Shown: positions 261 to 17,583 of the stretch, in pieces
How the letters are laid out: each line of letters starts with the position of its first letter
How positions within the stretch are numbered: position 1 is the stretch's first letter
Assembly (NCBI GenBank): GCA_017456765.1
Contig: JAFTIR010000035.1
Location: forward strand, 1 to 64,000
Reading direction: 5' to 3'
DNA length: 64,000 nucleotides
Source: Clostridia bacterium
GTDB lineage: Bacteria > Bacillota > Clostridia > Oscillospirales > CAG-382
Notes under the pieces: model-generated
What the model was told of the DNA's origin: nothing
Seen by the model: the letters and a program-made list of their open reading frames with translations, nothing else
The model's database searches: none
Made by a program: the position numbers and the translations under genes

Positions 261-1673
261 TTATATTGTCTCTACCTTAATAACATTTGTGTTTCCGCTC
301 TTACCATTTATCTGACCGCCGGTGAGGACTACATTATCGCCCTTCTGAAGCCCAAACACACTCTTTGCTCTGTTAAGTGAGGTATAAAACATAACCTCTG
401 TTGAATTATATTCCTCGCAGAGTGCGGGTGTTACGCCCCAGCTGAGATTTAGTTTTCTCCATGCCTTTTCATTTGTTGTAATGCCGAGAATATCGACGGG
501 ACTTCTGAAACGGCTTACCATTCTTGCAGTTGTTCCGCTTATTGAGTTAACAACAATGCACTTTGCCTCAAGGTCAATCGCCATGGAGCAGGCAGAATGT
601 GAAACGGCGTCAAGGTTACTCTTGATTTTGAACTCAGCCGTTCTGAAGCGTTTCTTATAATCAATACACTTTTCGGTAAACTCCGCAATTTCAACCATGT
701 TCTTTACGGCTTCAACAGGGTGCTTTCCCGATGCAGTCTCTCCCGAGAGCATAATTGCGCTCGAACCGTCATATACGGCGTTTGCAACATCAGAAAGCTC
801 TGCTCTTGTAGGTCTCGGGTTATGAATCATGGATTCAAGCATTTCTGTTGCTGTAATTACTCGTTTTCCGAGCATACGGCACTTATTGATGAGGTATTTT
901 TGAATAGAGGGAACTTCGATAAAGGGAATTTCTACGCCGAGGTCTCCACGGGCGACCATGATACCGTCGGCAAGAGTACAGATTTCATCAATATTATCAA
1001 CGCCCGAGCGGTTTTCAATCTTAGCAATTACATCTATTTCCTTACCGCCATTAGCATTGAGAAAATCGCGGATTGCCTTTACATCCGAAAGAGTTGACAC
1101 AAAGGATGCGGCAACAAAGTCAACGTCGTTTTCAATTCCGAAAAGAAGGTCGGACTTATCCTGCTCGGAAAGGTAGTCATGCTTCATTACTTTATTGGGA
1201 AAGCTCATGCTCTTTCTGTCGGACAGCTCTCCGCCTGCTATCACCTTACAGACAACATCGTGCTGCTTTATTTCGGTAACCTCGAAAATTACAAGTCCGT
1301 TATTGACAAGTATTCTGTCGCCCTTTGACAAATCCTCGGTAAGGTGGTCATAATTTACTGCAACCCTTTCCTTATTTCCCACAACATCGTCAATGGTAAA
1401 GGTAAAGGTATCTCCCTCATTAAGGGTTATTTTTTTATCTTCAAATGTCTTGATTCTGTATTCGGGACCCTTGGTATCAAGCATGATAGCAATTGGCATA
1501 TTCAGCTTTTCACGAACTTTTTTTATAAGGTCTATCTTTTCCTGATGGTCTTCATGTGTACCGTGGGAAAAGTTAAGACGGGCAACATTCATGCCCTCAA
1601 GACACATTTTTGTCAGGGTTTCTTCATTATCGCAGGCAGGGCCTATCGTACAGATTACTTTTGTCTTTCTCAT
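261..1673 (-). CDS. pyk: Pyruvate kinase
   Basis: Converts phosphoenolpyruvate and ADP to pyruvate and ATP in the last step of glycolysis, in the cytoplasm. The protein is 470 residues, the length of a canonical three-domain bacterial enzyme without the extra C-terminal PEP-utiliser domain found in Bacillus. Family marks are visible: the N-terminal KTKVICTIGPA strand, NFSHG, MLDTKGPE, the active-site strand IAKIENRSGVDNIDEI, ARGDLGVEIP, and TATEMLESM followed by PTRAEVSD-like PTRAELSD. The ATG is preceded on the minus strand by GAGGAGAG at about 8 bases. The gene is monocistronic, with convergent genes downstream and a divergent potassium transporter upstream. Confidence 0.97.
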   Translation of the reverse strand: MRKTKVICTIGPACDNEETLTKMCLEGMNVARLNFSHGTHEDHQEKIDLIKKVREKLNMPIAIMLDTKGPEYRIKTFEDKKITLNEGDTFTFTIDDVVGNKERVAVNYDHLTEDLSKGDRILVNNGLVIFEVTEIKQHDVVCKVIAGGELSDRKSMSFPNKVMKHDYLSEQDKSDLLFGIENDVDFVAASFVSTLSDVKAIRDFLNANGGKEIDVIAKIENRSGVDNIDEICTLADGIMVARGDLGVEIPFIEVPSIQKYLINKCRMLGKRVITATEMLESMIHNPRPTRAELSDVANAVYDGSSAIMLSGETASGKHPVEAVKNMVEIAEFTEKCIDYKKRFRTAEFKIKSNLDAVSHSACSMAIDLEAKCIVVNSISGTTARMVSRFRSPVDILGITTNEKAWRKLNLSWGVTPALCEEYNSTEVMFYTSLNRAKSVFGLQKGDNVVLTGGQINGKSGNTNVIKVETI

Positions 1674-1797
1674 ATTTTTGTCTCTCCTCGGAGGTAAATC
1701 GATATGTATTTCAAATCCACAGCCATCCTACATTATATCACAAAATTTCAAAAATTCAATATGCAATTTGTGTAGTGTTGTATTGTATTTTTTGTTA

Positions 1798-1826
1798 TTG
1801 AATTGTACACAAAAAAGTATTATAAT
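1798..1826 (+). promoter_or_regulatory. Promoter of ktrB
   Basis: A TTGAAT -35 and a perfect TATAAT -10 are separated by 17 bases and lie about 30 bases before the ktrB start. Confidence 0.7.
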
Positions 1827-1857
1827 ATCTGTAACAGAAAAACTAAGGAGTATGCCG

Positions 1858-9625: not shown

Positions 9626-9714
<89 letters not shown>

Positions 9715-9744: not shown

Positions 9745-9834
9745 GCAGAAGTACTCAAGTGGTGAAGAGGCGCCCCTGCTAAGGGTGTAGGTCGAGCAAT
9801 CGGCGCGAGAGTTCAAATCTCTCCTTCTGCGCCA
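9745..9834 (+). tRNA. tRNA-Ser (anticodon GCU)
   Basis: The acceptor GCAGAAG pairs with CTTCTGC and CCA is encoded. The anticodon loop CTGCTAA gives anticodon GCT. The variable arm is long, and the T-loop reads GTTCAAATC. The last 21 bases of this gene recur 444 bases downstream, so it is the likely integration target of a lost element. Confidence 0.96.
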
Positions 9835-9872
9835 ACATAAAAGGCATCCCATTCGGGGTGCCTTTTATGTTA
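9835..9872 (+). terminator. Terminator of the tRNA pair
   Basis: A 16-base stem with one G-T pair, containing AAGGCATCCC and GGGGTGCCTT, encloses the loop ATTC and is T-rich at its 3' side. Confidence 0.85.
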
Positions 9873-10063
9873 CCATACAAAAAGGTTGGATTTTGAGACC
9901 GAGAGCCGATTGTCGGCGTGAGAGGGAGCGTTGCGAGCGCTGCCGGTGGCAGATGAAGCGAGCAAAAGCGAGTGAAGATTTAAGGAGTATCGGTCGGTGG
10001 AACCGCCGAGACGACTATAAATCTGAGGTGGTCGCAGACCAAATCTCTCCTTCTGAGCTGGTT

Positions 10064-10095
10064 GAAAGAGCATTCCTTTGGGGATGCTCTTTTTG
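10064..10095 (+). terminator. Terminator-like hairpin inside the repeat array
   Basis: AGAGCATTCC and GGGATGCTCT pair with one T-G around a short loop and are followed by five T. It occupies the same place in unit 2 as the tRNA terminator does in unit 1. Confidence 0.65.
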
Positions 10096-10347
10096 GTTTT
10101 GTACATGGGTGGATTTGAACTCGAGCGCCGAAGGCGTGAGAGGGAGCGTTGCGAGCGCTGCCAGTGGCAGATGAAGCGAGCAAAAGCGAGTGAAGATTTA
10201 AGGAGTATCGGTCGGTGGAACCGCCGAGACGACTATAAATCTGAGGTGGTCGCAGACCAAATCTCTCCTTCTGCGCCAAGCAAGAATGGCTTAAAACCGT
10301 GTGTTTTGAGTCATTTTTGTTCTTTTTCTAACATTTTTTTCTAACAA

Positions 10348-10640
10348 CTATATTCCTATTGCCCTTGTGAGAGCTTCAACGCTCTCATTTTTTGTTATTT
10401 TGATTTTTTTGATATATATTTTTTCTGTGGTGCTTGTTTGCCCGTGCCCTAGTTGAACGGTTATATCCTTAAGCGAAATCCCCTGTTCAAACAATATGCT
10501 CGCCACAGCATGTCGATAGTCATGACCCTACAAGGTGGTAAACCAAGTTTGTTTGTCATTCTCCTTATTATTCGGTTTATGCTATTCGGATTATATATTC
10601 TACCATTGTCCTGACGAATAACAAAATCTTTATCATACTC
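10348..10640 (-). pseudogene. Frameshifted C-terminal remnant of a tyrosine-type integrase
   Basis: On the minus strand from 10524 to the stop at 10348 the frame reads HDYRHAVASILFEQGISLKD and then LGHGQTSTTEKIY. These are the catalytic HxxR, LGH and Tyr blocks of phage/ICE integrases. In a neighbouring frame upstream, 10640 to about 10526 reads EYDKDFVIRQDNG and ending TNKLGLPPCRV, the usual stretch before HDxRH. One base is missing at the junction near 10524, and an in-frame TAG lies just upstream of HD. The N-terminal two-thirds are absent. The gene is dead, and it lies beside the tRNA-tail repeats, fitting a lost element at tRNA-Ser. Confidence 0.85.
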
Positions 10641-17472: not shown

Positions 17473-17583
17473 TAAATATTACATGACTGACGGATTTAAG
17501 CGGATCGACGCTAAGGGATTGTAATATAATTTTAGCCGACCGTCTGGGCAATTCGTTCATTTTGGATAGAATTGCCCTTTTTA
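17473..17583 (+). promoter_or_regulatory. ZTP riboswitch (pfl motif) with terminator
   Basis: The 5' half has TGACTGACGG, and a pairing ATATTACA/TGTAATAT (17476-17483 with 17520-17527) closes the first domain. The 3' domain carries CCGACCGTCTGGGCA, the conserved pfl-motif core. The last bases of the core, GGGCAATTC, also form the 5' arm of a terminator with GAATTGCCC (17569-17577) followed by T. This is the usual design in which ZMP/ZTP binding stops terminator formation and turns on the gene. Folate/one-carbon stress would thus raise pyruvate formate-lyase. Confidence 0.9.

Follow-up and report, generated by a model that had tools for sequence, protein, structure and literature searches.

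The repeat core beside tRNA-Ser(GCT) in the window (the whole 64,000-nucleotide stretch of DNA analysed) is, judged by sequence comparison, one diverged member of a large class-wide family that is absent from Rfam. We call this family element X. Its members are about 105-120 bp long, and we consider X to be probably a non-autonomous palindromic mobile DNA element that targets tRNA arms and other GG sites. X shares the general features of such elements: copies are dispersed and numerous, have no coding capacity and a self-complementary structure, and both empty and filled sites are found.

tRNA genes are textbook landing sites of large integrative elements. An enzyme-less element of about 115 bp sitting repeatedly in the D-, anticodon-, variable- and T-arms, always on the sense strand and next to a preserved intact tRNA, represents a different use of tRNA genes. 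X also accounts for broken tRNA fragments of a kind that is frequent in gut Clostridia and escapes annotation.

The array beside tRNA-Ser(GCT)

Two units lie downstream of tRNA-Ser(GCT) at a spacing of 218 bases, each containing the core and ending in a copy of the tRNA 3′ tail (Table 1). The original prediction of a 218-base array with copies of the tRNA tail is thus borne out: the 144-base repeat is 99% identical and chance is ruled out. The tail, CAAATCTCTCCTTCTG, occurs three times as claimed (within the tRNA at 9814, then at 10040 and 10258), and two of these copies have the complete CGCCA end. The claimed near-identity of the core also stands, over 144 bases rather than 142, with 2 of 144 positions differing between 9915-10058 and 10133-10276 (142/144 the same). 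The inverted T-arm had been placed at the left end of this core; it is found just to the left of it and outside it (9884-9908 and 10107-10131), and it differs between the units. The left flank of each unit reads antisense then sense: an inverted T-arm/variable arm comes first and a short sense copy after it. The two terminator-like hairpins share 71% identity within repeat D2. The array was missed by Tandem Repeats Finder because the linkers diverge.

These are the only two X copies in the window's own genome (1.8 Mb). Both are diverged family members, scoring about 48 bits and aligning well in the 5′ arm only; in copy 1, the 5′ arm fits the family model and the 3′ arm has diverged.

The corresponding empty site is found in a sister species of the same genus (G002, L009), where tRNA-Ser(GCT) leads straight into AAGCAAGAATGGCTTAAAACC. 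From 10258, that is from the third tail onward, the window matches this site at 60 of 60 bases, a match that marks the two units, at the level of sequence, as an insertion or duplication at the 3′ end of tRNA-Ser(GCT). A tyrosine integrase relic (PF00589) lies just downstream of the tRNA in both genomes (about 1590-1850, minus strand, in L009). Elsewhere in the window, a ZMP/ZTP riboswitch (17473-17556; RF01750, 54.7 bits) is located upstream of a pyruvate formate-lyase-like ORF.

Table 1. Features of the array and its surroundings (window coordinates)
Feature	Position	Strand	Evidence
tRNA-Ser(TGA), intact neighbour	9626..9714	+	ARAGORN, Rfam
tRNA-Ser(GCT), intact; target, with its T-arm and 3′ end duplicated	9745..9834	+	ARAGORN, Rfam
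Terminator-like hairpin, then T-run, 3′ of the tRNA	9834..9871	+	Inverted repeat I2, 94% complementary
Unit 1 left flank: antisense T-arm/variable arm, then sense GGCGTGAGAG	9884..9924	+	Sequence comparison
Element X copy 1, two-armed hairpin	9925..10039	+	Model R1, 48.6 bits, E 6.3e-10; repeat D1
Second tRNA 3′ tail copy, end damaged (AGCTGG)	10040..10061	+	Sequence comparison, repeat analysis
Second terminator-like hairpin	10065..10096	+	Repeat D2, inverted repeat I9
Unit 2 left flank: antisense T-arm, then sense stretch	10107..10142	+	Sequence comparison
Element X copy 2	10143..10257	+	Model R1, 48.1 bits, E 8.3e-10
Third tRNA 3′ tail, full CGCCA	10258..10278	+	Comparison with L009
Broken tyrosine integrase C-terminus, frameshifted relic beside the array	10346..10527	-	Translation, PF00589, E 1.6e-7

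Distribution and fold of element X

A DNA search of 60 relatives gave weak core matches, nearly all adjoining tRNAs; one further match (L010), weak and coding, falls outside the family and was dropped. Nine of the matches were used to build the covariance model R1. One training row (L003) is short of one C, which leaves the conclusions unaffected. With R1, trained on the D-loop subtype and therefore biased towards matches of that subtype, X is found in 33 of 63 genomes of the family, 104 of 295 of the order and 28 of 148 of the class, and in 0 of 118 genomes of the phylum outside the class. Most of the genomes are draft assemblies, in which contigs frequently end at X, and the statistics on X treat copies as independent, ignoring shared descent.

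An exact-pattern search returned 58 named contigs with X, all of them Oscillospiraceae/Clostridia assemblies and many from ruminant gut; viral contigs searched by exact pattern gave none. Phage records yielded only unannotated fecal contigs of doubtful origin, labelled 'Bacteriophage sp.'. In these deposits (L131, L133, L134, L135 and L136), X-like hairpins lie between genes and the phage origin is uncertain.

Rfam 15, searched in gathering and E-value mode, gives no match to X and returns only tRNA, the unrelated Gut-1 and sub-threshold noise. Near tRNA loci that carry X, Gut-1 RNA motifs form inverted pairs with close spacing (L021:1117-1293 and L063:441-626). Our literature search found no account of element X and was informative only through reviews of such elements at large.

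The fold of X, on one strand, has two arms. The first is a helix P1 with tandem G-A pairs, topped by the hairpin P2, and a linker separates it from the second, P3. P1 has 4-10 bp of free sequence followed by the conserved tandem G-A step, and P2 is CYGCC-NNN-GGCRG; next come an asymmetric AUGAA side and the linker, and P3 is GCGGU..ACCGC in most copies, with a variable tip. Since the conserved G-A steps are found on one strand only, we infer that this strand is the folded one. The ends of X (GGACG..../....CAACAGGA) are not inverted repeats; inspection revealed no clear terminal inverted repeats and no target-site duplication at the ends, and one target base is often lost. In three loci (L126:4292-4455, L120:5512-5644 and L122:6622-6702), a two-hairpin element of about 55 nt (GTGGCTTGTCCTCGGC...TTGCGC) is nested in the X linker.

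The pairing is strongly conserved. In alignment A4, 94.3% of cells are paired, with 217 two-sided changes and a covariation score of 0.416, compared to 0.05-0.07 when slid. Alignment A6, partly from outside the order, gives 93.7% paired cells, 248 two-sided changes and a score of 0.622. Slid controls have only 31-58% of cells paired compared to 94% in X. RNA helices normally change through G-U, and the helices of X do not display this RNA-like tolerance: G-U pairs amount to 8/1300 in A4 and 14/1316 in A5 (0.6-1.1%) compared to 200/2149 (9.3%) in 91 distinct tRNAs from the same loci. This near-absence suggests that pairing is kept at the DNA level, or that the arms are rewritten together.

Sites of X at tRNA genes and elsewhere

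Copies beside other tRNAs, which the original prediction had proposed to look for, are common. An intact tRNA lies within 500 nt of 76 of the 134 distinct X copies, compared to roughly 2-3% expected for random sites (an estimate from about 50 tRNA genes per 2 Mb). The tRNA is on the same strand as X in 76/76 cases and in 19/19 of a second set partly from outside the order (95 in total). This adjacency to many tRNAs, always on the same strand, supports the idea of a tRNA-targeting element; the idea of a tRNA-derived repeat is not supported, the core having no tRNA homology and tRNA sequence being confined to the flanks. The strand rule also makes a direct test of target recognition possible, between folded single-stranded DNA and RNA.

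Typically X is found at a GG within one arm of a tRNA copy that is truncated and has an intact one next to it; of 178 distinct X copies, 137 have GG immediately before them. The D-loop is the most common site; the others are the anticodon loop or stem, the variable loop and the T-arm, in tRNAs for Ser, Pro, Met, Trp, Gly, Ala, Lys and Leu. Two arrangements are found. The 5′ type consists of the leader, the 5′ part of the tRNA up to GG, X, a tRNA stub of 5-25 nt, and then the leader again with the intact tRNA. The 3′ type, seen in the window, consists of the intact tRNA, a terminator, an antisense then a sense arm, X, and the remainder of the tRNA to its 3′ end. The direct repeats on either side of units range in length between 9 and about 100 nt, and X copies follow each other head to tail in L039 and L128. 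In the 5′ type, the stub is frequently capped by its own antisense: a cap hairpin of at least 7 bp is present in 25% of 61 units compared to 1.4% of shuffled sequences and 3% at the native site.

Other sequences interrupt tRNAs at some of these loci. To the right of X in L020, L022, L027, L037 and L081, the anticodon loop of tRNA-Ser(CGA) is where a different insert begins, at CTGACTCGAA(A)^GGTAGCCGA...; it looks like one end of a larger integrative element that uses this tRNA too. In L012 and L065, Pro tRNA fragments are broken at TTTGGGA by a third sequence (GCGTGAACAAACTTCTC...).

Spread to non-tRNA sites, named beforehand as an observation that would speak against tRNA targeting, is seen for a minority of X copies. 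In Vescimonas fastidiosa and in one metagenome-assembled genome, X lies in palindrome loops; the other such sites are the starts of integrase genes and an RHS gene.

V. fastidiosa carries 37 X copies on one 860-kb replicon. The 24 copies of one subtype mostly sit in the loop of a REP-like palindrome, with GGGCCGATGTGG before X and TCATCGGCCC after it. Unfilled copies of this palindrome are found nearby, and other X copies lie in two further palindromes. A 9-bp closing stem is present in 14 of the 24 copies, and a closing stem of at least 6 bp in 58% of them compared to 8% of random junctions. In the other genomes, a stem closing directly around X is only slightly enriched, at 14% compared to 9% with mismatched flanks. 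X is on the G-rich strand in 23 of 30 cases in Vescimonas, a weak hint of a replication-strand preference.

X also occurs at or in protein genes. It is found at the starts of three integrase genes: in L116 and L100, a partial copy of the gene start precedes X and the intact gene follows it, and in L087 X directly precedes the start codon. X further lies inside an RHS gene, at two paralogous places of one genome, where the protein is broken. X is often open in at least one frame (GDVCERRRWRMKRAK..., for example L100:5949-6060) and can lengthen a neighbouring protein.

Explanations and known systems

In the mobile-element reading that we favour, X would join after GG where the target DNA is exposed and single-stranded. 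Its fixed orientation at tRNAs suggests that it probably uses the non-template strand during transcription. After insertion in an essential tRNA, the survivors would be those lineages in which part of the tRNA and its leader or trailer had been duplicated in tandem, leaving one tRNA copy intact. Direct repeats of such variable length are more in keeping with tandem duplication than with a constant att core. The flanking repeats could let arrays grow or shrink through recombination, and the two units of the window may have come from duplication of one. The antisense caps may stem from template switching at tRNA hairpins, or from selection against misfolding of tRNA fragments; the antisense-capped stub speaks against our reading in that simple insertion leaves it unaccounted for. 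Two further points against it are that the ends of X show neither clear terminal inverted repeats nor a target-site duplication, and that none of the three enzymes considered below tracks X. The hairpin loop as a general target of X is supported in Vescimonas and by the positions within tRNAs, and is not proven.

The putative moving enzyme would be supplied in trans. Y1 transposase (Y1_Tnp) does not track X and is absent from the window's genome and from many X-bearing genomes. TnpB is above cut-off in only 19 of 285 genomes and reverse transcriptase (RVT_1) is found in 76 of 285; neither is associated with or enriched alongside X, and both are absent from the window's genome. We accordingly rejected an IS605/TnpB-derived element, whose TnpB/TnpA requirement is unmet in the window's genome, as well as a retroelement or group II intron passenger. 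We put forward tentatively, and with some doubt, a more specific scheme: a putative mover would recognise the non-template strand as folded single-stranded DNA and join X after GG in exposed loops of tRNA arms and palindromes, with a built-in partial tandem duplication and antisense caps that spare the essential tRNA.

We regard it as unlikely that X is instead a structured non-coding RNA, or a guide or ribozyme, expressed with the tRNA, whose pieces would serve as guide or decoy while the caps fold the transcript. Strong covariation, conserved non-canonical internal loops and flanking antisense arms point in this direction, as do the invariable sense orientation of X and its position within the tRNA's own leader in most tRNA cases. 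Against this, G-U pairs are almost absent, X has no fixed genomic partner and occurs in palindrome loops and a broken RHS gene as well, the X copies of the window lie behind a terminator, and there is no Rfam match. A version in which the antisense T-arm is a 5′ guide was rejected, as the D-loop flanks are sense and G-U pairs are missing.

Repeated integration and deletion at the tRNA, which the original prediction had offered as one explanation, gains from the broken tyrosine integrase that adjoins the array and stays a rival. The units would then be shrunken remnants of integrative elements, with the tRNA pieces as attL and attR and X as a surviving attP-arm or end. The direct repeats of tRNA ends around units, the integrase relic beside both the window array and the empty site, and the three integrase starts, of which two have part of the gene start repeated before X, all agree with such an origin. 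The widely varying repeat lengths, the dominance of D-loop sites, the palindrome-loop and RHS insertions free of such repeats or an integrase, and the missing integrase motif near most X loci together make it improbable. Replication slippage and template switching at tRNA hairpins, with cores exchanged between tRNA loci and no mobile element, would typically produce sense-antisense caps and variable tandem repeats, but this is very hard to reconcile with one and the same core family occurring across a class at tRNAs that are unrelated, in palindromes and at protein genes, and X at non-tRNA sites that have no local homology already disfavours it.

Among known systems, X works most like the Rickettsia palindromic elements (RPE), being small, palindromic, gene-invading and often open in frame. 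We know of no enzyme for these elements. Described RPE are about 100-150 bp, palindromic, and found in protein genes and in RNA genes such as tmRNA and M1 RNA (PMC2229807). Where RPE form one end-to-end stem, X forms two separate arms, and it lacks terminal inverted repeats; it is further set apart from their described features by its restriction to Clostridia among the genomes surveyed here, its tRNA bias, its fixed strand and the intact tRNA that is kept.

ERIC, RUP and NEMIS are bacterial MITE-like small non-autonomous repeats. MITEs typically have terminal inverted repeats, target-site duplications and AT-rich targets (PMC10969869), whereas X has neither such repeats nor such duplications and follows GG. 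The CIR elements of Caulobacter resemble X as small non-autonomous repeats with a linker between two arms (PMC2229807). GTAG/CGTC-tagged REPs with RAYT transposases (PMC3733652) are likewise palindromic and dispersed, and X even sits inside such palindromes in Vescimonas; in contrast to them, X is larger, has internal loops and no tag tetranucleotide at its foot, and the window's genome has no Y1 transposase. Like integrative elements at tRNAs, X units come with a duplicated tRNA end and one tRNA that stays intact, but they contain no integrase, vary in repeat length and prefer the D-loop. X thus belongs to no named family, while its general kind, that of small palindromic elements, is already known.
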